33,885 nucleotides of DNA from IMG/VR virus record IMGVR_UViG_3300028837_001414, positions 1-33,885 of that record; one strand, written 5' to 3'. This DNA is from a virus. Below, piece after piece: positions 3,909 through 21,262 of the stretch. The notes under the pieces were generated by a model. That model had not been told where the DNA came from. It ran no database searches and saw only the letters and a list, made by a program, of their open reading frames with translations. How positions within the stretch are numbered: position 1 is the stretch's first letter; every line of letters starts with the position of its first letter. The translations under genes were made by a program, and so were the position numbers.

Positions 3909-5680
3909 GCCCAGATTTTTCGATACGCTTTGTGCACGAATGCGAACTGCCGTGGCCAGCGAAGCATAAGCCGCTGGCGATGGTACAGATAGAGCATCGT
4001 GACTTCGGCGGCATTCTCGATGGGCTCGCGTAGCGCGTAGTCGCTCACGTAGCCCTCATCCTTGCTGATCGTGTCGAGCGACGCATGCCATGCCTTGACC
4101 GCTGCGATGCTGCCGAGTTGCCGGATGAGGTAGACGTTTAGCGAGTGTCCGATCTCATGCGGGAGCACGCGCGCGATGCGCTCCGCGGGAAGCGTTTGCG
4201 AGATACGGATCTCGTTGCCGCTCCAATACGCGTAGTCGTGTTCATCGAGCGGGTTCTGCACCCGCGGGATATCCGTAGTAACAAACGTGATACCCACGTC
4301 TTTGTCAAAGATTTCGGGGGGTGTCTTGTCGATCACCTTCTGGATCTCATCCATCATGGTGGGGTCGCCGACACGCACGCTGATCCCCTTTTCGGGCCGG
4401 CTATCCCCGTAGCTCAGCACGGGCGCATCGGGTGTCGGCTTCGGGAGCGCCTTGCGCAGATCCCAATTCAGCCAGTCGCTTCGCAGCAATGACTCCGGCA
4501 CCATCTCGCCCGTTTCGTCGAAAGCCCAGCCTTCGGGCACGTGGATGATATCGCAGCCACACCACGGATGGACGGGGCCGACCGTGGCCTTCCAATCGCG
4601 TGCCTTGCGGCCGACGTTGCTCCCGTTCTCGACCAGCTCACTCATCTTGAAGATCCGCAGTTGGCCCGTGGGCAGCTTGTGCAGCCTCATGCAATGCGGG
4701 CACGCGTCCGGGTTTGGCATCTTGGCGACCCGGATATCTTCGGGATCGCCGTAGCGTGAGGCGAGCCCCTGGACGATGCCCTCTTGCATGGCCTTCTGCT
4801 TCTCAGTGGCCGCGATGCGCTTGAAGTCGCGAGACCAATCCCCGGTCTTGTCGCCCAAGTCGCTCGCGAGCTGGCGCCACGTTTGCTGGCGCTGAATGTT
4901 CTCCGCGGTGGAGTCTCGGATCACGCCTTCGTAGCGCCGCCGCAGATCCTTGTCGGCCTCGATGGCGATGGTCGAAAAGTCGTCCGATATCTTGTTCCCG
5001 AGCCCCTTGATCTCCGTGGCCGCGGAGTGCTTGGCCCATTCGACCGCGTGCTTCTCGTTCGGCCCTATCGGGATCTTCGGGGCGAAGTCACTCACGAATT
5101 GCTTGTAGGTGAGCCCGTGGCGCCGCTTTTTCTCTTCGTAGGACCGCGACGCGCTCAGGACGTGCCCATAGCGGTAGGCGTCTTCGATGGCGTCCATGGC
5201 CGCTGGGGGCATCTCTGAGGCCGTGGGGACGAATGTATGCCGTAGGTCTTCGGGGAGTATCCCCGCGTCGATTAGGCGCTCTACAGAGCCCGGCGGTAGG
5301 GTCTCCGGGCCGATGGTCCCGGCGATGAACGCTTGGTGGTAGTCTTCGACGATCTGAGTCAGCTCATACAGCTCCCCCGGCGTGATCAACGGCTTCGGGG
5401 TGTCGGCCTTGGTGAGCTTCACCTTGATCGTCTCTTCGATGTAGTGCCGCATCTCAGACACCATCTTGTCGAGCTGCTTATCGTAGGCGCGTTCGAAGCG
5501 GCCCACGCTCGTGAGCATCGCCTTGTAGCGGCGGAACGTGCCCTTGCCGTAGCGCGGAACGGGCTCCGCTTTGACCAGAAGTCCGTTTCCGACCACCGCT
5601 TGGGCGATCTCGATAGGATCTAGGTCTGCGGGCGCGTCGACTCGAATCTTGGCTTTCGCCGCCACGTCGCCCCCCTGCAT
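3905..5680 (-). CDS. MuF-type head protein fused to a zincin metallopeptidase
   Basis: The 591-residue protein starts at an ATG in TAATG, sharing bases with the previous stop. Residues ~90-400 are the MuF (phage Mu gpF / SPP1 gp7) region, ending in the typical cysteine signature CPHC (~331) and HPWCGCDI (~373). MuF proteins bind the portal and are carried into the capsid. A linker with DLRK|ALPKPTPDAP follows, then a separate C-terminal domain with HEIGH near residue 506 and a conserved REPIENAAEV about 45 residues later, the layout of a zinc metallopeptidase. LVK|A (37) and LTK|A (~90) sit in the N-terminal arm. MuF proteins with C-terminal toxin or enzyme domains are a known arrangement; the substrate here is unknown. 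It lies two genes downstream of the portal, as expected. Confidence 0.85.
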   Translation of the reverse strand: MQGGDVAAKAKIRVDAPADLDPIEIAQAVVGNGLLVKAEPVPRYGKGTFRRYKAMLTSVGRFERAYDKQLDKMVSEMRHYIEETIKVKLTKADTPKPLITPGELYELTQIVEDYHQAFIAGTIGPETLPPGSVERLIDAGILPEDLRHTFVPTASEMPPAAMDAIEDAYRYGHVLSASRSYEEKKRRHGLTYKQFVSDFAPKIPIGPNEKHAVEWAKHSAATEIKGLGNKISDDFSTIAIEADKDLRRRYEGVIRDSTAENIQRQQTWRQLASDLGDKTGDWSRDFKRIAATEKQKAMQEGIVQGLASRYGDPEDIRVAKMPNPDACPHCMRLHKLPTGQLRIFKMSELVENGSNVGRKARDWKATVGPVHPWCGCDIIHVPEGWAFDETGEMVPESLLRSDWLNWDLRKALPKPTPDAPVLSYGDSRPEKGISVRVGDPTMMDEIQKVIDKTPPEIFDKDVGITFVTTDIPRVQNPLDEHDYAYWSGNEIRISQTLPAERIARVLPHEIGHSLNVYLIRQLGSIAAVKAWHASLDTISKDEGYVSDYALREPIENAAEVTMLYLYHRQRLMLRWPRQFAFVHKAYRKIWA

Positions 5681-6435
5681 TACGGTGTCGTGACCAGATC
5701 CCCGGCGACCATGACGCGTACGCGCGCATTGCTCGTGAGCGACGTATTGCTGATCGATACCGAACTTGTGTTGACCGTGGCGAGCAAGTAGGCGAGCACG
5801 CCATCCGCTGCGCTCGCGCCCGAAGGATCGGCGGGTCGCTGGACCTGCATCGCGCTCGCGCCCGGAGTGCTGTTGATCCCGTTGGTAATCCCGATGGAAT
5901 GTCCCAAAATGGCCAGTGCGGTGCCGCTCTGAATGTCGATTTCCGACCCGGTGCCGGTCGTGGTGCTCGCGAGCCGCAGCTCGCCGCCGTTATCCGACGC
6001 AACGGGCGCTTGGCCGTTCAACGCAAGGCACGAGTTGATGCGGTTGACGACCTGAGCGAGCGACTGATCGGCCGCATCGAAGCTGCACGAGACCAGCCCA
6101 CCGTTGTCCACATCGAGATTCAGGGTCTCGCCGCCGGCAAAGCCGGTCGGGTAGGTGCCCCCGGAGCCGTCCACGATTGCAGCCGTGGCGAGCGCACCCC
6201 CGAAGGTCACTTCGATCTCTAGGTCGCTTTCAACGTAGATGAGCCGGGCTTGGGTCACGTCGCCCATGTCGATCGCGAGGTTCGTAGTGCCCGACTCGAT
6301 CGTGAGCACTTGGGAGATCGCGTGGTCGAGCGTGTCTAACAGCTCCGTGAAGCTCCGCTCGAAAAGGCAGTCGTCCAGCGAGTTATTGAGACCCACTTCG
6401 AGCGATAGCACTGTGTTGGTTCGTACCCCCATCAT
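5680..6435 (-). CDS. Lysine-free beta-rich virion protein
   Basis: A 251-residue protein between portal and MuF. It contains no lysine at all, unlike every neighbour. The middle and C-terminal parts (VVNRINSCLALNG, SDNGGELRLASTTTGTGSEI) have the Gly/Thr/Ser-rich strand-turn pattern seen in many phage structural proteins, including sheath, baseplate and fibre domains. Its first ~60 residues are helical and start with two Met codons. It is joined by ATGA to the portal and by TAATG to MuF, so it is part of the head operon. No specific family was recognised. A decoration, connector or head-fibre role is possible. The absence of lysine means that it has no candidate LxK protease sites. Confidence 0.6.
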   Translation of the reverse strand: MMGVRTNTVLSLEVGLNNSLDDCLFERSFTELLDTLDHAISQVLTIESGTTNLAIDMGDVTQARLIYVESDLEIEVTFGGALATAAIVDGSGGTYPTGFAGGETLNLDVDNGGLVSCSFDAADQSLAQVVNRINSCLALNGQAPVASDNGGELRLASTTTGTGSEIDIQSGTALAILGHSIGITNGINSTPGASAMQVQRPADPSGASAADGVLAYLLATVNTSSVSISNTSLTSNARVRVMVAGDLVTTP

Positions 6436-8231
6436 TCCCCCACGATCTCTACATCGATGATCTGGCGATCATTGTGCACTCTTTGGCTCTTCCGCAACAC
6501 TTCGACGGTACGGATGGCCGACTCAGAAGCCGCTAGGGCTTCCTTCTGGGATGCCTTGCCGCCCTTGACCCCCGAAGGTAGGTCTTTGCCCGAAGCCGAC
6601 TCTTTGCCGCCCCCCTTGGCGCCTGGGGGGCCTTGCTGCTTCCCCTTGTCGTCGCCCTTGTCTTTGTCCTTGTCGGAACCGCCGAACCAGTCGGGAAGGC
6701 CACCGGAGTCGCCATCGCCGTCCCCGTCGCCTTCCTCGCCGAAGCCGCCTTCCTCGCCGCCCTCATCCATGCCGGTCTTGCCCTGGACCCATTGCAGGAA
6801 CGTCGGGTCGAGAATGATCTCCCCAAGCCCATCGGGCAGCGGATCTTGATCCATCTCAGCGCGGATTTCGTCGACCGTCTTGACCTTGGTGACTTCAAGC
6901 ATCCGAGCCTCACGCTCTTTGTCTTCGGCCTTGGCATCGAAGCCGGTGAACTCGAATTCAAAGTCGGGCTCTAGCTCCCACACGATATGCTGATTGATCG
7001 TGTCTTCGATGTGCTCGATGAGCGGCCGGAGCCCCTTATCCTTCGACTCTTGCACTTCGGCCTGGTTCGGCCGGGATTCGAAGAGCGATGAGCCGCCGCC
7101 GCCGGAGCCGTAGATGAACCCGATCTCTAGGGGGTCGATCCCGTAGACCGAACAGATCGACTTGGTTAGGAAGTCGAGCCACTGGCCAAACTCCATTTCG
7201 CGGTTCGTCGAATGGAGCGAGACCCATTGCAGGTCTTCCGCATTCAGAATCGGGGTCTTCCAACTGTTCTGGACGCCCGTCACCATCGAGTACCACATGC
7301 GTCGGAACGCGCGGAGCTGGCGGTCTGGAATGGCGCCCTTGACGTTGATCACGCCCTTGATTGCGGAGCCCTGAGAGAAAAATTTGGTATTGTATTCGAA
7401 GCCATAGAGCCAGCTCGTGATCATGCGGATGAGCTGTTCAATGGGCGAAAACCCGAAGCCATTCACGCGCAAGTCGCTTCGCGGGTTCATGACGCTCCAC
7501 GCCATATCGTCAGGGCCGAACTCAGCGATCACGGAGTCTTCGTAGACCTGGACGTAAGCGACCCGGTTGCGGCGCTCTTCTGGGTCCATGTGCTCCACGT
7601 CCGCGACTGCGGGACGGATAGTCTCCGTGGGCAGCGCGATGAAACGGCTAATCCGACCTTTGCGGTCGCGGATCTTCTCGATGCAGATTTGGTCGTAGGT
7701 GAGGCAGTCCCGCACGATCTTCTTTAGGAAGCTGCGGAACGAGTCGCGATCGTACGCCTTCTCATCGGGGAGCATGTACCCGGTGGTTTCGATCATGCGC
7801 TCTAGCTCAGTCGCCTTCGTTTGCTGCGCTTTCGTCATGACCTTGGTTTTGTCGCGACGGTCCCGAAGGATAATGCGGTAGCCCCGGTCGTAGTCGCCTT
7901 GCTGCGGCACGGCGAACTGGCTGAGCTGGTTCACGCGGGTCTGGATAATGGCCGCGATCACCGTGTTCGATATGCTCATTTGGCGGAGCGTATCGTACGT
8001 GAGAATGCTGGGACGTTGCCGCCAGCCGCCCCAATCCATGACGCTGTAGGGATCATGAAAGAGACCACGGGGCTTCTCTTCCGTGGGCTGCGCGAGCCCG
8101 CCCTTCATGAGTGCATCCTGCATCTCATCGAACGGCACATCGTCGCCAAGGTCATCGGCCTTGCGCAATGACTGCATGGCGCCGTCAAGAGCGCCCGTCC
8201 CCGCCGTTCGGATATCGTCTAGGAGCCCCAT
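6432..8231 (-). CDS. Portal protein
   Basis: A 599-residue portal, the twelve-subunit ring through which DNA enters and leaves the head. Supporting segments are MDWGGWRQRPSILTYDTLRQ, ISNTVIAAIIQTRVNQLSQF, YDQICIEKIRDRKGRISRF, WKTPILNAEDLQWVSLHS and IYGSGGGGSSLFESRPNQ, all typical of phage portals. The C-terminal ~100 residues are a low-complexity Gly/Asp/Lys-rich tail. Near the N-terminus SLRK24|A and LMK43|G follow an amphipathic helix, and LRK|S lies about 15 residues from the end, so both ends may be trimmed. The start ATG lies in TAATG overlapping the previous stop; the stop overlaps the next gene by ATGA. Confidence 0.9.
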   Translation of the reverse strand: MGLLDDIRTAGTGALDGAMQSLRKADDLGDDVPFDEMQDALMKGGLAQPTEEKPRGLFHDPYSVMDWGGWRQRPSILTYDTLRQMSISNTVIAAIIQTRVNQLSQFAVPQQGDYDRGYRIILRDRRDKTKVMTKAQQTKATELERMIETTGYMLPDEKAYDRDSFRSFLKKIVRDCLTYDQICIEKIRDRKGRISRFIALPTETIRPAVADVEHMDPEERRNRVAYVQVYEDSVIAEFGPDDMAWSVMNPRSDLRVNGFGFSPIEQLIRMITSWLYGFEYNTKFFSQGSAIKGVINVKGAIPDRQLRAFRRMWYSMVTGVQNSWKTPILNAEDLQWVSLHSTNREMEFGQWLDFLTKSICSVYGIDPLEIGFIYGSGGGGSSLFESRPNQAEVQESKDKGLRPLIEHIEDTINQHIVWELEPDFEFEFTGFDAKAEDKEREARMLEVTKVKTVDEIRAEMDQDPLPDGLGEIILDPTFLQWVQGKTGMDEGGEEGGFGEEGDGDGDGDSGGLPDWFGGSDKDKDKGDDKGKQQGPPGAKGGGKESASGKDLPSGVKGGKASQKEALAASESAIRTVEVLRKSQRVHNDRQIIDVEIVGE

Positions 8232-9049
8232 TAGTTACACGTGCAATGTCCGGGCGGGATCAGAAGAGTCTGCATCTTGGTGAGGTCGTGGTAGCCGTGT
8301 ACCGGACAGTCGCCGTCCCCCTTTACCACGAACTCCGGTTCGGGTGCGGTAAATGCGCGCCGGGTCTCCGCGACCTGAGACTTGCGAAGCGCGATGCTGG
8401 GGTCTTCGGTGTCATCGATGAACGAGCCTTGCTCATGGTGGTCGGCGAGCTGCGCCGAAGGCCGTGCTCCGGGGTCTTCCTGAATCCAGGGAGCCTCTTT
8501 GGAGTAGTGGGCCACTTCGCCCCTGTACCCGTTGCCCGCATCGTTGTCGAAGCCGCTCACATCGGGCTGAATGAGCCCGGAGTTGCGGAGGATATTGGCG
8601 ATGCTCACGGCCGTCGCATCCTTGCCGGCAGCCATGAGATCGGGGTTGTTCCGCATGTAGACGACCAGCTCGTTCATGATGCGCATGGCAAAGAAGTTGA
8701 GCTGATCATCGTAGCCCGTGGGCTTGTTTTTCACGTGCTCGCATTCCTGCTTCTCGTGCTCGTAGGCTTGCTCTACGAACGCCCCAAGGTACTGCGGCAA
8801 GAGGTTGTCAGAGAGCTTGCGGCCCTTGCTCTCCGGCCCGCTCAGCTCAAAGGCATAGAGCCCCTTTTTGAGCGAGGGTTCGAAGTGGCTCTTGCGAGCC
8901 TTGCGTGTATTGCATCGGCCGATGAGCTGTTGCACTACGTCGTCCGCGACACCCGCGGCCTTCATTTTGCCGATCAGCTCTTGGGTAATATCCCCAGCCT
9001 TCATCTTTGCGATCAGCTTTTGGATGATATCGCCCTTGCTCTTCCCCAT
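8231..9049 (-). CDS. Virion-associated protein with C-terminal zinc knuckle, overlapping the previous gene
   Basis: A 272-residue protein starting at ATG 9049 with no clear ribosome site. The N-terminus has two near copies of a helix (IIQKLIAKMKAGD / ITQELIGKMKAAG). Residues ~60-180 look like a helical globular domain (LSDNLLPQYLGAFVEQAYEH, FFAMRIMNELVVYMRNNPDL). The C-terminus has a compact Cys/His cluster (CPVHGYHD...HCTCN) that could bind zinc. Candidate processing motifs LKK|G, LRK|S and VVK|G separate these parts. The gene overlaps the end of the 1076-aa frame by 203 nt in another frame. Either it is a separate, coupled gene, or a +1 shift near the GGGG at 9047-9044 joins the two. It abuts the portal by TAATG. 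The function is unknown. Confidence 0.65.
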   Translation of the reverse strand: MGKSKGDIIQKLIAKMKAGDITQELIGKMKAAGVADDVVQQLIGRCNTRKARKSHFEPSLKKGLYAFELSGPESKGRKLSDNLLPQYLGAFVEQAYEHEKQECEHVKNKPTGYDDQLNFFAMRIMNELVVYMRNNPDLMAAGKDATAVSIANILRNSGLIQPDVSGFDNDAGNGYRGEVAHYSKEAPWIQEDPGARPSAQLADHHEQGSFIDDTEDPSIALRKSQVAETRRAFTAPEPEFVVKGDGDCPVHGYHDLTKMQTLLIPPGHCTCN

Positions 9050-12000
9050 GAACGATGGTCCGCTTCATTTGCGTCGGCGCAGTCCGCATCGAAAGGAGCC
9101 CGTCAGGGATATCCCCGCGCATCGCATGCGCGATTTTTTGCGAAGATCGAACGTCCGCGTTGTCGAGCTTGTTTTTGATCGCCCTAGCCATGCCATCGAT
9201 GCTGATCTCATCGTTGCCAGCTTCGACGGCCTCCGTGAAGTCTTTGAGATCCTTGGGAAGCCCCTCGATCACGCCGACCGCCCAACCGCCACCCAAGACA
9301 CTGCGGGCATCGCTGCCACGCTTGACCTTGCCACCGCCCGCACCCGGTGCGTCCCGGTAGATCCACTTGCCCCCGGCACCACGCGTGCGCTGCCGGCCTT
9401 TCTTGGAGCCCGGTGCGCTGTGCCAGCCGCCGCCACTGGCCTTGCGGAGTGATTCGAGCCCATCGATGGCGTCGCCGCTTTTCTTGTGGCGCATGTACTT
9501 GGCCGCGTGGGTATGCCCCTGAGCCGCGTCGTCATGAAAGTGGGCCGTGTGGACGGCGGCCCGGATCTTGTCGTTCGTTTCCTTGCCGAACTTCGGGTCG
9601 ACGCCGCCGGAGATATTGGCCCCTTCTCCGACGCCGAGCTTCTTACCGTAGGCTTTGACTTCCGCGGCGTGCTTTAGCTCGCGCCATTCGCTCATCTTGT
9701 CGCGGTACGCGTCGCGGTGCTTGCCCGCGGCGCCGTAGTGGTCGCTCTTCGAATGTCCAGGGAAGAGCTGTTGCACGGCCTTGCCGAGCCCGGATGCGGA
9801 CTGGATCTGATCCCACGTGGGATTGTTCTGCCCCTTGATATTGAACTTCTGGCCCCGGTAGGAGTCGGGCGAGATATCGATCGCGGCGTGCTTGGCCTTG
9901 GCTTCCTCGCGCTGCTTATCGTGCGCGGGCTTTAGGTGAATCGCATCGAAGTGCGCATTCTTGGCGCTCTCGATTGCTCGCTGGATCTTCGCGTCGCCGT
10001 GCTCTTTAGCCCAGCTTACCGCCGCTTCGATATCCTCTTTGGGTACATCGGTGAAGGCTTTGAGCTTTTCCGCGGCGTTGTCGTTCCACTGGTTCAAGTG
10101 GTGGTCGTGGTAGAGATCGACGATCTTCTGGGTCTTGGCGCGCGCGTTCGGATCGGTATCCTTCGTAGCTCCGGGGCGCTTATCGTATTGCTCTTTGGTG
10201 TAGTAATACTTGTAGCCCTTGCCCCCAGCCTTCGGGACACGCTTGTAGTATTTGCCGCCGCGCTGCACACCTTTGAGCAACACTTCGAGCCCTTCGATCG
10301 CATCGGCGCTCTTCTTAGCGTCCATCTCAGCCTTCTTTTTGCGCCACGCTTCGAGCGGATCTGCGCCCTTCATACCGCCGCTCTTCTCTTTGTTCCGGCG
10401 CACGGTCTCTGCCAGCTCCGCATCGGTCGAACTGCGGTAGCCGCTCTCCGCGCGCGTTCTGACGTTGCGCCTCTTGTTCTCCGCCAGCTCCGCATCGGAG
10501 CGGCGGCCCTTTGCGCGGTCTGCCCCGCGCTCTTCGGGGCTCTTGACCTTAGTGCCCTTCGGCCAACGGCCCTTGCCCTTGCCCGCATCGATAGCCGCCG
10601 CTGCTTTGCTAGGCGGCACGAATACATCGATTCTTCCGCGCTCTGTACCGGAGCCTTGGCGCACGGTGATATCGGATTTGCTGCCAACTAGCGTGGCCGC
10701 CACCGCGTTCATGATGTTATCGATAGTCCCTTGTGGCAGCGTCTTATCGACCGTGAGACTCAGCTCTTGCGTGCCGTCGTCATGCGTGAGCGCGGTCGAG
10801 CTTTCCACGCCTGCGATTTGCTTCACGGCCGTGGCCATGCGCTTGCCCGTTCCTTCTTGTAGCTCTCTGAGGCCGCTCTTGCCGGAACGCTCCCGCTCCG
10901 CATCGGTACGTCGACCCTTGGTCTTCTTTTCCGTCTCACTAAAGTCAGCACTTCTAAGCGCCAACTTCTGAGCCTCTTCTAGCGACGATGCGTACCCCAA
11001 TTTTTTGGTGGGGTTGCCCGCTTGCGACACGTGAAACAAGCCATCTTCGTCCGTAGCGTCAACAAAGATCCCGTGATCGTATTTGTAGCGGGTTCCGCCG
11101 TACTTCATGTTGCGAATCACGGTGGGCTTGCTGCCTAAGTCGCGACCGCCCCATGCTTTGGTCTGGCCTTTGGCCTTGTCCGCTTTGCGCTTTCGAGCGT
11201 CGTCCTCGCGCTTCGCGAACACGTTGCGCATCTCCGATACCCGATCCCGAAGCGACGGGGGCACGACGTGGTGCTTGGGGCCGAACCGCTTGTCAGCGAC
11301 TTCAATGCCCCTCGCAAGCTCCTGGTAGGCCGCGTACTTCACCGGCCACTGTACGGAGCCGTCATAGGTGCGCTCGCTATCCCAGAGCTTGTCAGCGGCC
11401 TCTATGATGCGCGCCTTCTCGCCCTCGGAAGGATTCAGCGGATCGATAGCATCCGCGGCGTCGTTCTGGTTCTTAGCGATGCGCTTGGCTAGCTCGAAAT
11501 CCGTAGCCTCAGTGACCGGGGTGAGCTTGGTTCCGCCCGTTGGCGCATCGAGCACCATGATGTGCCGAACGCCTTTGATCGTGCTCCGAAAGTCGGCTTG
11601 CTCCGCGTACCACGCCTCGTTTTCGAGCTTTGTGCGCGCCATGTCAGCGGCGAGTGCCCGGCCTTCGGGGCTCGCATCGTTCGCTTTGCGGTTCGCCGCG
11701 TGCCAGCCCTCCGACCACGCATCGAGATAGGGCATGGTGCCGCCGACTTTCAAATCGAACGGCGTGCGGGCCATGAACTCTCTGTCTTGTGCGGACGCTT
11801 GAATGCCTTCCGCATGCGCTGCGGCGCCACGTGCGCGAGCTTGCTCCGGGGAAGTCCACTTGCCGGCGCCGCTCTTGGCTTTGCCCTTGGCTTTGCGCTT
11901 ACCGCCCTTGCGGGGGCTACTCTGCCAGCCGCCGGAGCCGTCAGGATAACGGTACTGATACTTGCCGCCGACTCGCTTGCGCTGCCCGCCCTTAGTGCCC

Positions 12001-12077
12001 TTGGGGATATTGCCCCAGCCGCCACCACCCGGCGCACCCTTGGCGAGCCGGCCTAGGCTATCGATTGCATCTCTCAT
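8847..12077 (-). CDS. Giant modular internal protein, 1076 aa (C-terminus uncertain)
   Basis: The ATG overlaps the previous stop (ATGA). The protein is Lys/Arg/Ala-rich and built of segments bounded by a repeated signature: DAIDSLGRLAK|G at residues 3-14, DAIEGLEVLLK|G near 595 and DAIDGLESLRK|A near 875. Each is followed by a basic Tyr/Trp block: GGWGNIPKGTKGGQRKR with YRYPDGSGGWQS, then RGGKYYKRVP with YKYYYT, then GGGWHSAPGSKKGRQRTR. The long segments between them are not recognised; a His-rich stretch lies near residue 860. The last ~70 residues after MKRTIVHG have a composition typical of an out-of-frame reading (ADRKDEGWGYYPRADRQNEG), because another gene uses this DNA. The natural end may be near 9047, or the product may continue by frameshift. 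A packaged, processed polyprotein is inferred. Confidence 0.75.
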   Translation of the reverse strand: MRDAIDSLGRLAKGAPGGGGWGNIPKGTKGGQRKRVGGKYQYRYPDGSGGWQSSPRKGGKRKAKGKAKSGAGKWTSPEQARARGAAAHAEGIQASAQDREFMARTPFDLKVGGTMPYLDAWSEGWHAANRKANDASPEGRALAADMARTKLENEAWYAEQADFRSTIKGVRHIMVLDAPTGGTKLTPVTEATDFELAKRIAKNQNDAADAIDPLNPSEGEKARIIEAADKLWDSERTYDGSVQWPVKYAAYQELARGIEVADKRFGPKHHVVPPSLRDRVSEMRNVFAKREDDARKRKADKAKGQTKAWGGRDLGSKPTVIRNMKYGGTRYKYDHGIFVDATDEDGLFHVSQAGNPTKKLGYASSLEEAQKLALRSADFSETEKKTKGRRTDAERERSGKSGLRELQEGTGKRMATAVKQIAGVESSTALTHDDGTQELSLTVDKTLPQGTIDNIMNAVAATLVGSKSDITVRQGSGTERGRIDVFVPPSKAAAAIDAGKGKGRWPKGTKVKSPEERGADRAKGRRSDAELAENKRRNVRTRAESGYRSSTDAELAETVRRNKEKSGGMKGADPLEAWRKKKAEMDAKKSADAIEGLEVLLKGVQRGGKYYKRVPKAGGKGYKYYYTKEQYDKRPGATKDTDPNARAKTQKIVDLYHDHHLNQWNDNAAEKLKAFTDVPKEDIEAAVSWAKEHGDAKIQRAIESAKNAHFDAIHLKPAHDKQREEAKAKHAAIDISPDSYRGQKFNIKGQNNPTWDQIQSASGLGKAVQQLFPGHSKSDHYGAAGKHRDAYRDKMSEWRELKHAAEVKAYGKKLGVGEGANISGGVDPKFGKETNDKIRAAVHTAHFHDDAAQGHTHAAKYMRHKKSGDAIDGLESLRKASGGGWHSAPGSKKGRQRTRGAGGKWIYRDAPGAGGGKVKRGSDARSVLGGGWAVGVIEGLPKDLKDFTEAVEAGNDEISIDGMARAIKNKLDNADVRSSQKIAHAMRGDIPDGLLSMRTAPTQMKRTIVHGEEQGRYHPKADRKDEGWGYYPRADRQNEGRGCRGRRSATAHRPMQYTQGSQEPLRTLAQKGALCL

Positions 12078-15000
12078 CGAATATCCCCCACAACGAACCG
12101 CCTCTTGGGCACGGTGAACGCTGCCTTGCGAAGAGTATCCCCTTCGAGTCGGCGCATCATCTTTTCAAGTAGGCCCGACTCTTTGAACTTCGCAAAGATG
12201 TTCTCGAAGAGCGGGGCCATCGCGTCGGTTTCCTCGTCGGTCGGCCAAAGCCCGTCAGGCGAGCTAGCCGCCTTCCGCAGTGCCACAAGGTACGTATTGC
12301 TGCGCCCTTGCTTAGCCATCTTGCGCTGTAGGTGCCGTTCGAAGCTGCGGGCGAACATTTCGACGTGGCTCCGCCAATACTGCTTCTCCGGCGGAGAGTA
12401 GAGCGGGTTCTTGTCCATGGCCGTCGTGATCCGGGCATCGAACTTTCTAAACGCCTCGCTATCACGGAGCGCCGTCACGGCCTCGCGCGTAGGCGACGGT
12501 GGACCTTGGCTGGCGCCGCGTGGGACACGGCTCCCCGTAAGGTTGTTATCCCGGTTGCGACCGCCATTTAGGTCGGCTGCGCCCGCGTTCGAATCAAAGA
12601 AGTGGCCCCATTCGTGCGCGAGCGAGCCCGCGCCGTTTAGCCGCGTCAGGTTGATCGCGTTGGCGGTGGGTTCGTAGTGCGCGAGTGCCCCCGCGACACC
12701 ACGTGCGCCCACGGCCATCGCGAGCTTGCCGTTGTAGCCCATCATGCTCGCCGGCAAGCCAGTCAGCTCCGCCATGTCATCGAAGCTATCGACCAGACTC
12801 TTTAGATGGTGAACGCGCTCTTGGTCCGTGACGCTCTTGCCGAGCTGTAGGCCGCGCATCTTGAACGGGCCGCCCTTGCTCATGAGCTTGCGGCCTTGCT
12901 CGATGTGCTCGTAGCGGCTCTTCGGCCCCTTACGTTCCATCTTGTCCGTGTCGTACATGTCCCGAAGGTTGACCGCGTAGCCCTTGCCGCTCTTCTTTTC
13001 CCCGAAGGCCGCGTTGATGCTCTTGCCTTCCATGACCAGCATCGCCGCTTCGGTGGCTGCGCTATTGATCGCGTCGGCGTCTGGCCCGTGCTTCCTAGTG
13101 GCGCGGGATTTGATATCGTCGACTTGCCGCGATGGCCGTGTCTTGCCGCTCACTTGGCCGTTGTACGCCTTGCGCAAGCTCTCGATCTCCGCGGGGTGCT
13201 TGCCTTCGGCCCTGGCCCGCTGATACGCCGCACGGATCTGATCTTCGAGCCTGGTCGGCTCCGTGGTCGGCGGCCCGTAGCTGGGATACCGCATTTGCGG
13301 AGCTGCTTCGGGAGCACGGCCCGACGCGGAGTGCTTCTCGATGATCCCTTGAACCGTCGCGTACGCGTTGTAGTAGCCTTCGAGCGCGTCCCGCTGCCAT
13401 TCCTTGGAGACTTCCGCCCACTTTTCGGGGTTGTTCCGGGCCTCTTCTAGCTCCGCCGCTTTCGCCTTGTACTCCGGGCTTTGGTGGTAGTCGTAGGTGC
13501 CCCGGCCCTCACGCTTCACGTCCCTGAAAAACCAAGCACGAGTAGGCGCGGTGCCGACCTTGGGCGGCTTCGCGGGGAACTTGTTCATCGCGAAGTAGTA
13601 GTGCGCTTGGTGGAGCACCCCATCTACGCCTTCCGCCTTCTGCGCGCGCCCGATGAACTCGATGGGCTTCTCACGGAGTAGGAACTTCCGCGTGAACATG
13701 GCGGGTGCGTCTTCTGAATCAAGAGCTTCGCGTAGGCTCTTCCAAGCCATCGCCCGGTGGCGCGCGCTGCCGAACACGTCTTCGCCGATCTGGCGTACGT
13801 TGCTATCCCGATCGTTGACGTACTCGCCTTCCTCGATCATCGATTCAGTCGTGTGCGACGCCTTGCCGCGTGGTGTGGAAGCGGGGGCCTTCTTAGGCGG
13901 CTGCGACTCTACATCCGCCTTGCTTTGCGCGCCCACTTGCTGGACCCACATCTTGTCCGTCGCGCTCACTGTGAGCGCGAGCGATTCGCCCGTTGCGACG
14001 TTCATGGTCGCAAGGTGGATCTTGAACCCCTTCTTACCCGACGCGATGATCCGGTACTGTTCATCGCCGAAGGGATGCAACACGTCGCCCGGCTTTATGA
14101 ACGACGCGGCAAGGTGCACGATATCGGGCATGCCTTTGGGCGTGTCGGGCTCTTTGGGCGCCTCAGTCGCGCCGAAGTCGAGCGTCGTTTGGCCCGCCTG
14201 CTTCTTATCGGGGGCCTTCTTTTTGGGTGCGCTTCGCTTGCGCGATGCGCCGCTCTGCCAGCCACCCTTGCCATCGGGATAGCGGTAGACCCACTTCATC
14301 CCCACGCGCTTGCGCTGGCCCCCACGCTTGCCGGCGGGAATGTTCCCCCAGCCCCCGGCTTTCTCTAGGTCGCCGACTACGAACCTATGTAGGGGCACGC
14401 TGTAGAGGCTCTTGCTAGTACCGCCCCGGCCGGGGATATCTACGATCTCGTCGCCGTCCCGATCCCGAAAAATGTACGCGCGCCCCTGGTCCTGCATCGC
14501 CTCGACCATGAGGCGAATGTCATTGACTGACTTCTCGTCTTTGGAGCCCGTCAGTTTTTCCGTGAGGTAGCCTAGATTGTGGGACGCTGTTTTGATCGCG
14601 TCAGCCACGTTCACGGCCGTGACTGAGCGCGACGGCTTAGCCATGGGCCACGGCTCGCCGTACTGGCCTTTGCGCGGCGGTAGCGTGTTTAAGTGCTCCG
14701 CGAAGTCGAGCCCGGTCTTCGTCAGGTCTTTTTGGTCATAAAACCCACCGTTGGAGAGAGCTAGGATACGGCCAAACTGCGGATGCGTTTCGACCTTGGC
14801 CCCGTCAGCGACAACGGACTGCATGAACGCTTTGAGCGTCGTGACCTTGCCATCGATGCTCCGCTGCTTATTGAGCGTCGCGTTGACCTTGGCCTTGCGC
14901 GCGGGGGTCATCTTGTCCGTGAAGCCTTGCGTGTCTTCGGCTTTGGCCTTCAACTTGGCGTCATTATCCTTTTGCGCTTGCACGCGCGCCGCCATCTTGT

Positions 15001-15964
15001 TCCGGCTTTCGGCTTGCCGTACGTCTAGGTTCTGTTCATCCGCAAGGTCTTTGCCATCGATGAGAGTGAGCATCGTGTGCCCCTCCGTTTCGACCATGAA
15101 CTTGCCGTTGGCGTGCTTGCCGACGATCCTTCGTTCGCCGTCCGCAGAATTCCAACGCTCTTTCGTATGCGGCGGGAGCTTTTTGCTGGGGTCTTGCTTG
15201 GCCGGCGCGAGCTTCGCTTCGAGACTATCGCGGCGCTCGTGGAGCTTGGTTAGCTCGCGCTTGTCGATATCCGCCTGGATCTTCCCGGCCGTCGAAGGGT
15301 TGCTCTCGTTCTCGCCGATGCGCCATTCGCGCACGCCGATCTCATCCCGTGTGCGAAGCAACTCGCTCTCAGTCGCGCGCTTCGGGTTCGCGGCGCGCTT
15401 CTTTTGCTCTTCGACCAGCACGCTCGCCTGGTCACGGTAGTAGCCGCCGTTGTCCGTGTTCATCTCACGGTCCATCGAATCGGCGCTTGGGAGCGTGGCG
15501 CGAATGTCATCGAGCGCCCCGCTGAGAGCTTGGGGCGTCATCCGGTAGGCGCGCTGGCGGTACTCATCGAAATTGAGCGACCGGCGGGTGACCGGGCCGC
15601 GGGCGGCGTTCTGCCGGCGGCTCTCTTCGATGGACGCGTCTAAACGCTTCCCAGCCGCTTCCTTGCGCTCTTGCTCCCACCGCTTGGTCCTAGCCTCGAA
15701 CTTCTTGACCTTGTGATCTACGAGTCGGCCTCGGATGCTCGTGTCCCGCTTAGGGCCGTGCTGCGGCTTGCCTCGGCTCACTCCGCTCTGCCAGCCGCCC
15801 TTGCCGTCCGGGTAACGGTAGAGATACCCCTTGCCGCTGCGCTTGCGCTGCCCGCCGTGCTTGCCGTTCGGGATATTACCCCATCCGCCCTTACCCTTTT
15901 CGAGCCCGCGCGCCATGATGGAACGCAACGAAGCCGCGTCCCCTATCGGTAGTCTCCCCGCCAT
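12074..15964 (-). CDS. Giant polyvalent protein with LPD1 zincin domain, 1296 aa
   Basis: The ATG follows the previous TAA with no gap. Residues 21-60 hold LEK|G, then GGWGNIPNGKHGGQRKR and YRYPDGKGGWQSG. A second copy near 530-570 follows DLEK|A and separates two halves. The first half is not recognised. The second half has a small beta domain near 620 (KPGDVLHPFGDEQYRI), a helical region, SLRK|A near 930, and from ~1000 the LPD1 'large polyvalent protein-associated' domain: LPASMMGYNGKLAMAVGARG, ALAHYEP, AINLTR, GAGSLAHEWGHFFD (HEWGH near 1116) and HVEMFARSFE. HExxH plus a downstream Glu indicates a metallopeptidase. The tail LRK|AAFTVPKRRFVVGD resembles the C-terminus of the zinc-ribbon protein. 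Polyvalent proteins of phages and conjugative elements are thought to be delivered with DNA; delivery here is inferred. Confidence 0.8.
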   Translation of the reverse strand: MAGRLPIGDAASLRSIMARGLEKGKGGWGNIPNGKHGGQRKRSGKGYLYRYPDGKGGWQSGVSRGKPQHGPKRDTSIRGRLVDHKVKKFEARTKRWEQERKEAAGKRLDASIEESRRQNAARGPVTRRSLNFDEYRQRAYRMTPQALSGALDDIRATLPSADSMDREMNTDNGGYYRDQASVLVEEQKKRAANPKRATESELLRTRDEIGVREWRIGENESNPSTAGKIQADIDKRELTKLHERRDSLEAKLAPAKQDPSKKLPPHTKERWNSADGERRIVGKHANGKFMVETEGHTMLTLIDGKDLADEQNLDVRQAESRNKMAARVQAQKDNDAKLKAKAEDTQGFTDKMTPARKAKVNATLNKQRSIDGKVTTLKAFMQSVVADGAKVETHPQFGRILALSNGGFYDQKDLTKTGLDFAEHLNTLPPRKGQYGEPWPMAKPSRSVTAVNVADAIKTASHNLGYLTEKLTGSKDEKSVNDIRLMVEAMQDQGRAYIFRDRDGDEIVDIPGRGGTSKSLYSVPLHRFVVGDLEKAGGWGNIPAGKRGGQRKRVGMKWVYRYPDGKGGWQSGASRKRSAPKKKAPDKKQAGQTTLDFGATEAPKEPDTPKGMPDIVHLAASFIKPGDVLHPFGDEQYRIIASGKKGFKIHLATMNVATGESLALTVSATDKMWVQQVGAQSKADVESQPPKKAPASTPRGKASHTTESMIEEGEYVNDRDSNVRQIGEDVFGSARHRAMAWKSLREALDSEDAPAMFTRKFLLREKPIEFIGRAQKAEGVDGVLHQAHYYFAMNKFPAKPPKVGTAPTRAWFFRDVKREGRGTYDYHQSPEYKAKAAELEEARNNPEKWAEVSKEWQRDALEGYYNAYATVQGIIEKHSASGRAPEAAPQMRYPSYGPPTTEPTRLEDQIRAAYQRARAEGKHPAEIESLRKAYNGQVSGKTRPSRQVDDIKSRATRKHGPDADAINSAATEAAMLVMEGKSINAAFGEKKSGKGYAVNLRDMYDTDKMERKGPKSRYEHIEQGRKLMSKGGPFKMRGLQLGKSVTDQERVHHLKSLVDSFDDMAELTGLPASMMGYNGKLAMAVGARGVAGALAHYEPTANAINLTRLNGAGSLAHEWGHFFDSNAGAADLNGGRNRDNNLTGSRVPRGASQGPPSPTREAVTALRDSEAFRKFDARITTAMDKNPLYSPPEKQYWRSHVEMFARSFERHLQRKMAKQGRSNTYLVALRKAASSPDGLWPTDEETDAMAPLFENIFAKFKESGLLEKMMRRLEGDTLRKAAFTVPKRRFVVGDIR

Positions 15965-18900
15965 TTACCGTTTCCTCGCTGTGAGCCTAACTCGCTTCTT
16001 CTTCTTTTTCCGCTTTGATTTCGGCTTGTCTTCGCCCACTAGCTCCGTGTCCTGGTAGGTCGTCTTCCCCTTCTCTTCGCGGGTGCGTGCATTCAGCTTG
16101 GGGCTCACGCGGAGCGGCTTGCCTGTTTCCCGGTCTTGCGGTTGCTTGAACGCGGGATCGCTTTCCGTCCGGTCCATCTCCCATTTGATGGCCGGCTTGG
16201 CGCTGAGCACCTTGCCATGAAAGCCCCATTTGCCGCGCGCCCGCTTGGCATCGGCTTGCCGGCGGTTCATCGCCTGGTCCCGCTCGCGCTTGTGGGCGTC
16301 GCTGTCTTCGGGGGGATAATAGATGCCTTGGTAGTCGGGCATCGGCGGCGTATCGAAGCGGGGTGCGCCTCGTGCTTCGCCTACCTGAATGTTCGGCGTG
16401 AGGATCGAACGGGCCTTCACGATCAAGGTGGGCTCGCTCTTGACGACCAGTGTGGGTTCCATGCTCTTCTTTGCCTCACCCTTCATGGCCCGCTCTAGCA
16501 ACGCTTCGGGCGATGGCTTGTCGCCGAACATGCTGTCTTGATCTTCGGGGTGCTGGGCAGCGAGCGCGGCGTAGTCGCGGAAGACGGCGCTCATCTTTTG
16601 GGGGCCATTCTTGCGGATGAGCACTTCAAGCAAGGTCATGGCGCGGGGGTTGTCGAGAATCGGGTTCCGCTCCCCGAACATCTCCGCTTGCGCGAAGAGC
16701 CCCTTGAACTCTTTGTCGCTCATGTCGGCGTTCAAAGCTGCCCGGTGGCCTTGCCGAGCCCGGAAGCTCAGATCGTTGAACTGTTCAAGCGCGACTTTGA
16801 GATCATCCCCTAGGTCATACGTGGCACCGTGGGCCTTGGCTTGCGCCATGAACGGCACGCTTCGGGCGATATTCCCGACGATCTTGGCGGTCGTGTTGCT
16901 GAGCAAGTCAGCGTCGCCGACCGTGCGCCCTACAAGCACGCGCTCGACCAGTTGCTTGCCGTCCTCGTTCAACCGCTTGGTGCCCTTGACCATGTACTGA
17001 TTCGAGTTGCGCTGATCGATCACGCCAACGCGGGTGAGCGCATTGATGAACCCTTCGGCCCGTGGCGAATCAAGAAAGGCATTCAGGGTCTCATCGGCTT
17101 CCATCGAATCGCCAAGTTGCTTGACCGCTGCATCGTCCAGCTTACGGCCCATGGCGACCTGCATCGTCCGCGGGTCCATCCCCTGAGTGAACGACTCGTT
17201 CATTTGCCGCACGAGTAGCTTCTGGTCGTCCGGTCCCGTCGACTCGACCACGCGCACGAGCACGGGGTTTTTGAGCGCCTTCACGTCTTCGGGGGTGAAC
17301 CCGGTCTCATGGGCGTGGGCTTCCATGTAGGCCCGTAGCTCTTTGGCCCGATCGGGGTGCTTCTCATAAGCGAGTTGCATGCTCATCGTGCGCGAGTTGC
17401 CCCCCAGCACCACGCCGTTCTGGTCCAGAATGGGTGGGCCGTTGACCGCATCGGGGTTCGTATTGACCAGGAATGCGGGATTGAGCTTGTTCGCGTTCCG
17501 CATGACCTTGGCTTGTTCGGCCCGGTCCCGGTGGTAGGCGCGCTCTTGCACCCCTTCGGGATACCCCTCCCGTTGCTTGAATGAGTTGGGGTCATGCGAC
17601 GCGACGGCCTCAGAGGCTTCCACGAGCTTGTAGCGGGCCTTTAGAGCCCGCGGAGCGCCGTTCTCGCCCGCTACGTACACCACGGCCGAAGCGCCCTCAC
17701 GCGTCGGCTGAGAGCGCGGAATGACCGCCTGCACTTGGGCCATCGCATCGCGGGTCGGCTGGATGGCCTTGTCTTTGAGCCCTGGCATCGCCTGAGCCAC
17801 GAGCGCGAGCCGCGCCATCGCGGGGCTATTGAGCGCGGCTTCAAGGGCCTCTTTGGGGTTGCCGTCCCGTGCCTTGGCCAGTGCCGAGCTGAGCGTCGCC
17901 AGCTCCGTTTCGGCCTTCCCAGCCAGATCGTCGACTTCGGCTTTGAGCGTCTTGCCGCCGGGTGGGTCGAGAATATCGGCCATCGCCTGGACGTGCCCAG
18001 CCTTGACCTTGCCGCCGCCGGCTAGGTTCTCCGCCCCCTGAATGGTCTGGCGGTAGGCCATGTTCCGGTGCTCTATGACGTTCCCAATGACCGCCGCGCG
18101 GGCTTCGGGCTCCCAGCCCTTGCGCTCTAGGACGGTGCCGAGCACCCGCTTCGCTTCGAACGGGCTCACCCCGGAACGCTGAAAGCTGGCCCTGAGCTTG
18201 GCGTAGACTTCGGGCACCCGCTTTTCGAGCTGCGCCATGCGCTCCGCGTCCGTGCCTTTCAGGTCGGTTAGCATCTCACGGGGCACGTGGCGGAGCACGG
18301 CGTTGACCGTCTGCGAAGCCCGCTTCTCCGCCCATTCGAAGTACCGATCGCCGTAGTGCTTGGCCATGAGCTTCGACCACTGGTCCGCAGTCACAGTGCG
18401 CTTGCGCTTGCCCTCACGGATCGTGATCTTGCCGTCTTTGTCGATCCCCAACACTTCGGCGACGCGCTCTCCGAGCTTCACGGTCTCGCCCACGGTCACG
18501 TCACGGGCTGCGGCGCTCTCCCGGTAGTAGTAGCGATACTTGCGCTTGCCGTTCACGTAGTACGGCACGCGTTTGATGTACTTGCCCCCGCGCGCGGCTT
18601 GCTCGCCTTTGCTGAGCGAAGTCACAAGGATGGGCTCATTATCCTCTGACTTTTGGAGCTTCATACCCGTCGACCGCAGCGCCCTTTCGAGCTGATCACG
18701 GACGCGGGGTTTCAGCGAGCTTGGGCCGTTGCGCACGTAGTGGTCGAAGGCTTCGGCGAACAGCTCCCCATCATCGGTCTCCGCGTACTGAGTCACGAAC
18801 TCATCGGGGATCGATGCGTTGACGGTCCCGGCCTTGACCGCTTGCCGAAACGACTCCCCCATTTGCTCCGCGGTCTGCCCGTAGTGCGGCACGTTGCCCC

Positions 18901-21262
18901 ACTTATCGAGCTTGTCGCTGCCGAGCTTTAGCTGTTGGAGTAGGAACTTCTGACGCTTCGCTTCGGGCGTGCCCTTAGCTTCGAGTGCTTTGAGCGTGTA
19001 AAGCACGTCCGCTTTGGGGCGGCCCTCGGAATTCATTTCGAGCAAGTCAGCCAGCTCTTCCACGTCGTCATCCGTGACCTTCTCACGCCGGCTTTCGTAG
19101 AAGTTGGCCCATTCCGCGCGCGCCTTGCTGCCCATGAGCTGGTAGTACACGCGGTGCCCTAGCTCATGCGTGACCACGCGTTGCGTGTTCCCGCTGTTGA
19201 ACAGCCGCACATAGTCTTGCTGCACATTGTAGTAGCCGGCCGTCGTGAAGTTTTCGCGCCCCCGGTGCTCATGCCCTTCGACGGAACGGCGCGTTTCGTT
19301 GTGCACGTGCACGCGCAGCCCAGCCAAGGTCTTGCCGAGCCCCATCTTGTCGAGCTTCGTTTTGACCCGGAGCGCGGTCTCGACCACGTTCGCGATCTCA
19401 TCGTCGCCCGCGGCCGTGCCTTCGAAGCCTTCCCCGTGGACGGCGAACTGAATGCCCTGCTTATTGAACGTGCTGATCGGGGTGCGACTTGTCTGCCCCG
19501 CGTGGGTATCTGCGATGAACGTGTCGACCGCATTCAGCAAGCCACGCACGCGCCGCTGAGTCTGCTTCCAAGCCGTAGCGGCGTACTCCGCCATCTCAAT
19601 GCCGGGCGCGTACGTCACGCTCTCTTTGTGTTGCATCGCTTCGGGGAAGCCCCCTGTAAAGTGCATGCCGCTCAACTTGGTAGCTATGTCGCGTCGGCCG
19701 ATCTCAGGGATATCCTCCGGCTTTGTCAGTAGGGCTCTGCCCTCTAGCCCAAGCACGTGGCTTGTGGCCCACCCGCGCAACTGCATCCCCATGTTTTCCA
19801 CGACATTCTTGGCTTCGTAGAACTTCTCCGCAAACTCTTCGGGCACTTCGGGCTCAAAAGCGAAGGGGCGCTTCGATGGTTCGATCGCGTTGTGCGCATC
19901 CCACTGCGGCCGGAAGATCGTTTCGGCCTCATCCATGATTTGCTTCTGGAGCTTGGTGGCTTGGCGGAAATCTTTGCGCCATTGTGCGACCGCTTCGTGG
20001 GACAACGGCCCCCACACGTTCACGCGCTTCTTAGCCTTCTTTTTGCGCCCCGTGCGCTTCGGCTTGGCGCTATCGGGATACCAATACTGCCAGCTCCCAG
20101 CGTGGCGCTTGCGGTAGCCGCCGCGCTTGCTGTTCGGAACGGCGGAATAGCCGGCTGGTGGCCCCTCTTTGGGGGTCGAATCGCGCGTGAAGTCGAGCCC
20201 TAGCTGTTCGGCCTTCTCGATGGTCGCGAGTTTTTCGTAATAAGCCGCGTCTTCGGTCAAATGGTCCATGGCGATCTCGGTTGCGATGGCACGATCGCTC
20301 GTGTGCTCCATTTCAACCTTGATACCCGCCGCTAACTTCGCTTTGTCGAAGTCAGAAGGCTTCTTTTTGTCGGCGAGACCGCCTGGGATCTTGTCGGCCT
20401 TGCGAAACTCCGCCCCATCGAAGTCACGGGCCTGTTCAAGTAGCTCATCTTTGTCGAGCGCCACTTCGATACAGGGCACTTTTTGGTCGAGCGCCTTGCA
20501 TGCGGCCCAACGGTGGTGCCCATCGAGAATAAAGCCGTCGTGACTCACCACGATCGGCTTTTTCAACGCTTCGGGAGTGTTTTTCAGCCGCTCGACCTTG
20601 GCCGTATCGAGTTTGTTCTGCATCGGTTGGAGCTTGTCGGCGTCGTAGCTCTTACGCTTGCACTTCGCGCCGTCTTTGCGCAGCTCTTTCAGGAATGCCG
20701 GGAGCTTTTTGGCAACGATCTGCGGCATTTCGATGCGCTTCTCATCGCCATTCAGGCGTTGCGCCTTGATCACGAGCGTGGGCTCGCTCTTGACCGCTAT
20801 GGAGCGGATGGTGGGCACCTTGCCGTAGTCGGTTTGCGTCGTTCGGCGCCAGTACGCGATCACGCGCTTGGTTAGCTCCATGCGAATGTCGGAGCTGATA
20901 TACGGCATGGCCCGCAGCACGGTCACAAAGCGTTCGCGAGCGAGCGCGATGCGTTGCGTTTGCTGAGTCTGGTCGAAATGCGCGTTGGTATCGACAATGA
21001 GCCGCTGTACCGCCTGCTCATCGGCGGAGTCGAGCCCCAAGCCGGCGGTCACGTCCTCGATGGTGACGATATGACGCGGCAACGGAGCATCCTCCGTGGT
21101 CATGTTCTGCCGAAAGATGCGATTCGCAGCGAGTTGGGGGTCTAAAAGGCCGCCTTTACCCGCAACAAGGCGCGCACGAATCTTGTTCGTGGGAGCCATC
21201 GACGGGAAGCCCGATGAAGCGTTGGTGTGCCAACGCGAGCGTTCTGCTTTGCGAAAGGCCAC
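15965..21262 (-). CDS. Giant polyvalent protein: ParB-like, DUF5661, zincin and DdrB-ParB domains, 1765 aa
   Basis: Domains in order: a helical N-terminus; ParB-like near 215-290 (KPIVVSHDGFILDGHHRW); DUF5661-like near 305-352 (VEMEHTSDRAIATEIAMDHL); a basic block (GGYRKR...WQYWYPDS) near 380-400; a zincin with HELGH near 697 and a later GELFAEAFDHY Glu near 835; a second basic block (GGKYIKRVP, KYRYYY) near 890; long helices; a DdrB-like ParB domain near 1205-1550 (KLNPAFLVNTNPDA, VVLGGNSRTMSMQLAYEKH, VRQMNESFTQGMD); and a basic tail. LxK-type motifs sit between modules (EFRK|A, IEK|A, LQK|S, VVK|S, IVK|A). ParB-like domains of polyvalent proteins are proposed nucleases or DNA-binding units. 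The start is GTG 21262 with GGTGA seven bases upstream; ATG 21199 is an alternative without a ribosome site. The stop TAA touches the next ATG. Confidence 0.82.
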   Translation of the reverse strand: MAFRKAERSRWHTNASSGFPSMAPTNKIRARLVAGKGGLLDPQLAANRIFRQNMTTEDAPLPRHIVTIEDVTAGLGLDSADEQAVQRLIVDTNAHFDQTQQTQRIALARERFVTVLRAMPYISSDIRMELTKRVIAYWRRTTQTDYGKVPTIRSIAVKSEPTLVIKAQRLNGDEKRIEMPQIVAKKLPAFLKELRKDGAKCKRKSYDADKLQPMQNKLDTAKVERLKNTPEALKKPIVVSHDGFILDGHHRWAACKALDQKVPCIEVALDKDELLEQARDFDGAEFRKADKIPGGLADKKKPSDFDKAKLAAGIKVEMEHTSDRAIATEIAMDHLTEDAAYYEKLATIEKAEQLGLDFTRDSTPKEGPPAGYSAVPNSKRGGYRKRHAGSWQYWYPDSAKPKRTGRKKKAKKRVNVWGPLSHEAVAQWRKDFRQATKLQKQIMDEAETIFRPQWDAHNAIEPSKRPFAFEPEVPEEFAEKFYEAKNVVENMGMQLRGWATSHVLGLEGRALLTKPEDIPEIGRRDIATKLSGMHFTGGFPEAMQHKESVTYAPGIEMAEYAATAWKQTQRRVRGLLNAVDTFIADTHAGQTSRTPISTFNKQGIQFAVHGEGFEGTAAGDDEIANVVETALRVKTKLDKMGLGKTLAGLRVHVHNETRRSVEGHEHRGRENFTTAGYYNVQQDYVRLFNSGNTQRVVTHELGHRVYYQLMGSKARAEWANFYESRREKVTDDDVEELADLLEMNSEGRPKADVLYTLKALEAKGTPEAKRQKFLLQQLKLGSDKLDKWGNVPHYGQTAEQMGESFRQAVKAGTVNASIPDEFVTQYAETDDGELFAEAFDHYVRNGPSSLKPRVRDQLERALRSTGMKLQKSEDNEPILVTSLSKGEQAARGGKYIKRVPYYVNGKRKYRYYYRESAAARDVTVGETVKLGERVAEVLGIDKDGKITIREGKRKRTVTADQWSKLMAKHYGDRYFEWAEKRASQTVNAVLRHVPREMLTDLKGTDAERMAQLEKRVPEVYAKLRASFQRSGVSPFEAKRVLGTVLERKGWEPEARAAVIGNVIEHRNMAYRQTIQGAENLAGGGKVKAGHVQAMADILDPPGGKTLKAEVDDLAGKAETELATLSSALAKARDGNPKEALEAALNSPAMARLALVAQAMPGLKDKAIQPTRDAMAQVQAVIPRSQPTREGASAVVYVAGENGAPRALKARYKLVEASEAVASHDPNSFKQREGYPEGVQERAYHRDRAEQAKVMRNANKLNPAFLVNTNPDAVNGPPILDQNGVVLGGNSRTMSMQLAYEKHPDRAKELRAYMEAHAHETGFTPEDVKALKNPVLVRVVESTGPDDQKLLVRQMNESFTQGMDPRTMQVAMGRKLDDAAVKQLGDSMEADETLNAFLDSPRAEGFINALTRVGVIDQRNSNQYMVKGTKRLNEDGKQLVERVLVGRTVGDADLLSNTTAKIVGNIARSVPFMAQAKAHGATYDLGDDLKVALEQFNDLSFRARQGHRAALNADMSDKEFKGLFAQAEMFGERNPILDNPRAMTLLEVLIRKNGPQKMSAVFRDYAALAAQHPEDQDSMFGDKPSPEALLERAMKGEAKKSMEPTLVVKSEPTLIVKARSILTPNIQVGEARGAPRFDTPPMPDYQGIYYPPEDSDAHKRERDQAMNRRQADAKRARGKWGFHGKVLSAKPAIKWEMDRTESDPAFKQPQDRETGKPLRVSPKLNARTREEKGKTTYQDTELVGEDKPKSKRKKKKKRVRLTARKR
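21219..21236. repeat. Perfect hairpin near the start of the 1765-aa gene
   Basis: GCGTTGG-TGTG-CCAACGC: 7-bp arms, 4-nt loop. It lies between the two possible start codons (GTG 21262 and ATG 21199), so it could affect start choice or initiation. It may also be chance in coding DNA. Confidence 0.4.

Follow-up and report, generated by a model that had tools for sequence, protein, structure and literature searches.

We analysed a 33.9-kb virus record (the window), which carries on its minus strand a head operon that reads, in transcription order, gp136, PVP1, PVP2, PVP3, gp272, portal, gp251, a MuF-like protein, gp77, the head maturation protease, a scaffold-like protein and MCP (Table 1). The initial annotation had placed PVP1 beside portal and MuF; all three do share this minus-strand operon, but PVP2, PVP3 and gp272 separate PVP1 from portal. 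Nor does a head-operon position set PVP1 apart from known polyvalent proteins, as had been suggested. It is ordinary, since phage polyvalent proteins typically adjoin virion genes, with MuF a frequent fusion partner (Iyer 2017, PMC5512222). At 8847-9100 (minus strand) PVP3 and gp272 overlap in different frames, and in relatives covering this region they form one in-frame protein; ~85-100 codons are missing at the junction compared with relative G001, reflecting either a real deletion or an assembly error.

Table 1. Features of the head operon and predicted fragments of PVP1 (↓, candidate cut; aa positions are those of the respective protein).
Feature	Coordinates	Strand	Description
PVP1 (P0001), putative polyvalent cargo polyprotein	15965..21262	minus	1765 aa, 197 kDa, pI 9.5; ORF + homologue in G001
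Predicted fragment 1, N-terminal module	20765..21262	minus	aa 1-166, 19 kDa, ends SEPTLVIK↓A
Predicted fragment 2, ParB-like	20399..20764	minus	aa 167-288, 14 kDa, ends AEFRK↓A; PHROG ParB matches
Predicted fragment 3, DUF5661	20213..20398	minus	aa 289-350, 7 kDa, ends ATIEK↓A; Pfam 6e-10 on fragment alone
Predicted fragment 4, type-B tag + HELGH zincin-like peptidase	18650..20212	minus	aa 351-871, 59 kDa; PHROG 6.6e-5
Type-B tag GGYRKRHAGSWQYWYPD	20063..20161	minus	about aa 368-400
Predicted fragment 5, type-C tag + DdrB-ParB	16439..18607	minus	aa 886-1608, 80 kDa, between SLSK↓G and LVVK↓S; Pfam ddrB-ParB
Type-C tag RGGKYIKRVPYYVNGKRKYRYYY	18515..18607	minus	aa 886-916
Predicted fragment 6, basic C-terminal tail	15968..16414	minus	aa 1617-1765, 17 kDa, pI 10.3
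PVP2 (P0002)	12074..15964	minus	1296 aa, LPD1 with HEWGH; sites aa 23, 535, 1280; type-B tags after aa 23 and 535
PVP3 (P0003)	8847..12077	minus	1076 aa; 13-aa leader MRDAIDSLGRLAK↓; internal sites aa 602 and 879, tag after each; fused to gp272 in relatives
gp272	8231..9049	minus	in frame with PVP3 in relatives
Portal protein	6432..8231	minus	sites aa 24 (SLRK↓A) and 581 (VLRK↓S)
MuF-like head protein	3905..5680	minus	C-terminal HEIGH zincin; site aa 410 (DLRK↓A), where relatives bear tag + ParB-like cassette
Prohead (head maturation) protease	2816..3556	minus	phrog_1028 1.3e-43; C-terminal segment after VLAK↓S (aa 165)
Scaffold-like protein	1900..2832	minus	9 sites vs 1.2 expected; position of the SPO1 scaffold gene
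MCP, SPO1/Herelleviridae type	459..1868	minus	sole site ELRK↓ALTAG after aa 31

PVP1 is a single open frame that begins with GTG. All four motifs quoted for it in the initial annotation lie in this frame, on the minus strand, which that annotation did not give. PVP1 is a real gene, because its 1930-aa homologue in G001 is 92% identical and dN/dS is 0.08-0.27 in five segments along its length. Domain searches bore out the proposed combination of a ParB-like region, DUF5661, a peptidase and DdrB-ParB, disparate domains in one polypeptide, as in polyvalent proteins. Pfam matches above the gathering cut-off were found for ddrB-ParB (aa 1207-1339, 1.2e-20) and DUF5661 (aa 310-350, 5.2e-8), and the ParB-like region (aa 171-291) matched PHROGs at 5e-21 and 8.6e-6, with Pfam ParBc_2 reaching only 0.034. 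The DdrB-like ParB domain has the conserved superfamily motif, including the predicted active-site Arg: GGNSRTM is invariant across 11 sequences, and the 10 homologues of this module are 47-62% identical. The HELGH region (aa 694-741) is followed by ELFAEAF, but we consider its assignment as a putative zincin only moderately firm, and the least firm of the four, because the PHROG match is 6.6e-5 and Pfam support is weak. A PDB sequence search with PVP1 and a PADLOC search with PVP1-3 gave no match.

The head module is of the SPO1/Herelleviridae type, with homologous MCP and protease (MCP versus gp6.1, E 9e-53) and with the SPO1 order portal-protease-scaffold-MCP kept, although gp251, MuF and gp77 intervene between portal and protease in the window. 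Both SPO1 and the window have LxK↓S/A sites and a protease whose C-terminus resembles the MCP N-arm (window, VLAK↓SLSAG..DPGTAPGEGFPLRDESLE versus ELRK↓ALTAG..DPGVAPGVGFPLRTESLE; SPO1, PLDK↓SLEAGYEV..FRKESLD versus ALNK↓ALEAGHTV..FRVESLE). In distant relatives the two segments change together, and MCPs with as little as 29% identity retain the N-arm site. In PDB 9row, a phi812-type virion MCP chain (439 versus 463 aa at full length) begins 24 aa in, at the Ser right after VVK, whose Lys matches that of the N-arm site, judging from chain length and alignment. The Glu that precedes the cut in T4-type motifs (LxE or SxE) is replaced here by Lys, both in MCP N-arms and before 113 of 123 tags (see below). 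Phage A511 is cut after Lys, which we did not use as evidence, and no published cleavage-site data for SPO1-like phages were found in the literature searched. A search of cultured phages gave no match for the C-terminal segment of the window protease (2816-3061, minus strand). As a mimic of the MCP N-arm, this segment may serve as a decoy substrate or as a core-targeting tail.

The candidate cleavage linkers of the initial annotation can now be specified as [LIVMF]xK↓[AGS]. This site occurs at the end of the 31-aa MCP N-arm (once), at the protease C-terminus, in the scaffold and in portal, and the same site lies at module joints of PVP1, PVP2, PVP3 and MuF; PVP1 thus bears the same candidate motif as MCP, and it is the sharing of sites with MCP, protease and scaffold that ties its candidate linkers to the head protease. 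The total for scaffold, protease, portal, MuF and the small operon proteins is 34 sites versus 8.0 expected; the non-head genes of the window, with 8 versus 5.2, are not site-rich. The SPO1 scaffold has 11 versus 1.3 expected, and SPO1 scaffold and protease are site-rich like those of the window. PVP1-3 alone are not enriched for the loose motif (24 versus 18.6 expected, p 0.12), and because this count is non-significant we made no argument from raw site frequency. Lysine-rich linkers inflate the background. A strict form, [ILV]xxLxK[AGS], gave 7 versus 0.9 expected in PVP1-3, with the motif chosen after seeing the data. The interior of the DdrB cassette holds 28 unconserved sites versus 30.2 expected, whereas the boundary site is present in every cassette whose start is covered. 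Some copies in PVP1 (e.g. at aa 1130 and 1426) probably lie buried and escape cutting. The 251 residues of gp251 (5680-6435, minus strand), encoded between portal and MuF, include no lysine, and its counterparts in six relatives have 0-1; this is odd in an operon whose candidate cut sites carry Lys, and gp251 may be protected from the protease.

Many of the candidate sites are followed directly by one of three short basic-aromatic tags: A, GPYIGPRGGKWADxxHTIPWK (core IGPRGGKWADxxHTIPW); B, GGQRKRxGxKWxYRYPDG; and C, GGKYIRRVPY..KYRYYY. Among 123 distinct GPRGGKW tags from 82 uncultivated-virus loci, chosen by tag and not by site though not fully independent, 113 begin 4-9 aa past a site (null, 9.5%); 19 of 19 type-C and 8 of 10 type-B tags also come after a site. 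The other ten GPRGGKW tags have no LxK site. Three of these (L045, L095 and L106) carry Arg right before GGPF (APR↓GGPF, VSR↓GGPF and KHR↓GGPF), so the residue preceding the cut might also be Arg. Sequences behind tag A have only the tag in common; they match InPase, Zeta toxin, RelA/SpoT, ART-PolyVal, topoisomerase I, DarA_C, SAM lyase, PRTase and SNF2, which by these matches is much of the polyvalent repertoire. Homologues of head-operon genes are found in 84 of 96 tag loci. Several tag genes open with a leader of ~8-20 aa that ends in a site (e.g. MMDAIEGLVRMIK↓ and MTIEALDEFAK↓), similar to T4 capsid-targeting sequences (PMC9026906). At one locus, L039, the gene itself begins M-AGPYIGPRGG behind a ribosome site, the tag being the natural N-terminus; this start equals the predicted cut product with no need of cutting. 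In a DNA scan, viral contigs contained 98 stretches with tag A and 84,980 prokaryote genomes only 3, with no credible match in plasmids or in 50,697 cultured phage records; the lack of a credible GPRGGKW match in the latter separates the window group from SPO1/Herelleviridae. The tag occurs in Myxococcales and Zixiibacteriota genome assemblies (L136 and L137), a hint at host phyla. A text search of the literature with the tag letters found no paper.

Relatives G001, G004 and G008 share this operon but carry insertions, losses or replacements of modules, and the exchanges fall at the sites. Where the window reads EFRK↓ADKIPGG in PVP1, G004 has EFRK↓AGAYIGPRGG...YRK↓ADKIPGG and G001 has ELRK↓AGAYVGPRGG...LRK↓ADKIPGG; where it reads DLRK↓ALPKP in MuF, G008, L032 and L010 have DLRK↓AGPYIGPRGG...LKK↓GEP. 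Each inserted cassette, in PVP1 as in MuF, is thus flanked by two copies of the site. Overall, 7 of 10 module breakpoints lie ≤9 aa from a site (p ~4e-5), and two PVP3 breakpoints have no site nearby. At two further loci (L028:13098-17009 and L027:6121-9837) the PVP2 position is occupied by a tag with a Zeta-toxin-like kinase cargo.

The same comparisons delimit the predicted fragments of PVP1. At the first boundary, where the site is at aa 166, homology to G001 runs out at aa 168 and an L044 homologue spans aa 7-169. The ParB-like block (aa 176-289/298), the DUF5661 block (aa 282-352) and the DdrB block (aa 878/892-1573/1605) recur in unrelated proteins, with their ends close to the module joints. 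Among the 10 DdrB homologues, a candidate cut site precedes the fragment 5 tag in every one whose start is covered. In G004 and G008 the fragment 4 peptidase is swapped for another HExxH module, and fragment 6 is kept from aa 1610 though the middle of the protein is exchanged.

The sequence supports the domains, the operon, the SPO1-type head module, the conserved sites, the tags and module exchange at the sites. Building on these, we infer cleavage, the cleaving enzyme, packaging, ejection and every cargo activity, as follows. PVP1 is probably a cargo polyprotein: the prohead protease would split it into about six head proteins, which would then be ejected. During prohead assembly, PVP1 and its two operon neighbours would enter the core. 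The activated protease would cut PVP1-3 after the Lys of [L/I/V/M/F]-x-K↓[A/G/S], the site it would also use on the MCP N-arm, its own C-terminus, scaffold and portal ends. PVP1 would yield about six products: N-terminal (19 kDa), ParB-like (14), DUF5661 (7), tag with zincin (59), tag with DdrB-ParB (80) and basic tail (17). On the simplest view, the prohead protease would treat PVP1-3 as it does MCP and scaffold, and the cargo would arrive in the head as separate, often tagged proteins. The basic-aromatic tag, which would start many released cargo domains, may have affinity for DNA or for the inner capsid, or may help in ejection. Leaving the head together with the DNA, the fragments would make PVP1 a putative injected toolkit, as initially suggested, whose ParB-like and DdrB modules would shield DNA or act on it. 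The cargo would thereby form a putative set of host-takeover proteins.

The embedded zincin-like peptidases (HELGH in PVP1, HEWGH in PVP2 and HEIGH in MuF) could instead process the polypeptide, in the head or after injection, along the lines of the model for P1 DdrB in Iyer 2017 (PMC5512222). We regard this as unlikely, since MCP, scaffold, protease and portal have identical sites, tag proteins whose cargo is unrelated have them too, and exchange of the zincin module for one of another type (G004 and G008) leaves the sites unchanged. PVP1 might also be packaged and ejected as one uncut chain, like the N4 virion RNA polymerase, which is packaged unprocessed (PMC5512222), with LxK sites and tags merely flexible joints or recombination points; 1765 aa is not too long for ejection. 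This appears quite improbable, as the motif recurs at residue level in tagless proteins, in scaffolds and at the inferred virion start of homologous MCP, and L039 has the product end as its gene start. Least probable of all is a core-binding or capsid-targeting helix (e.g. DAIEGLExLxK) repeated along the chain, with cutting incidental or absent: short amphipathic leaders do precede the first tag of several genes, as in T4 capsid-targeting propeptides (PMC9026906), but the T4 peptides are themselves removed by cutting and Lys-[AGS] varies less than the helix that precedes it.

Polyvalent head cargo is already known, as is single-propeptide cutting of internal proteins (T4, SPN3US and P1). Polyvalent proteins share with the window DdrB-ParB, zincin, LPD1 and the head-gene neighbourhood, and with its relatives InPase, ART-PolyVal, RelA/SpoT, PRTase, DarA_C and Zeta (Iyer 2017, PMC5512222). 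The window group differs in that its modules are bounded by a head-protease-like site and a shared tag, a grammar not found in that study. In P1, a head-carried protein likewise has a DdrB-ParB domain and DarA is cut by the prohead protease; however, the P1 proteins are separate and each bears a single propeptide or targeting signal at its N-terminus, the MCP cut follows Glu and no tandem tag-cargo array was seen (PMC9024508, PMC12810830). T4 internal proteins and Alt resemble our model in losing a short N-terminal leader to the prohead protease before ejection, but T4-type sites end in Glu, cargoes are single and no product tag is described (PMC9026906). SPN3US and phiKZ have many head proteins cut, some multiply, and a protease that loses a C-terminal propeptide, but their cleavage motif has Glu at its end and, except in the protease itself, the propeptides lost are all N-terminal, with no polyprotein (PMC10052503, PMC7411985). 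The literature searched contained no polyprotein in which tandem tag-cargo units are bounded by an LxK head-protease site. What looks new is the site and tag grammar of the polyprotein, not a polyvalent protein near head genes.

On balance, we favor the view that a two-part address, an LxK↓ site followed by a basic-aromatic tag at the new N-terminus, is widespread and undescribed, and that SPO1-type phages of uncultivated hosts use it to string unrelated effectors into cargo polyproteins for the capsid-maturation protease to dice in the head. The standing idea for polyvalent proteins is self-cleavage by built-in peptidases, with zincin self-processing proposed by Iyer 2017 (PMC5512222); the evidence here points instead to head maturation by the phage's own protease, and the residues concerned can be named exactly. 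Such processing may have been overlooked because trypsin also cuts after Lys, so that ordinary trypsin proteomics hides these cuts. In uncultivated phages the site and tag rule flags effectors that are predicted to be injected, even unknown ones, and, if true, the address alone would predict which proteins these phages inject.
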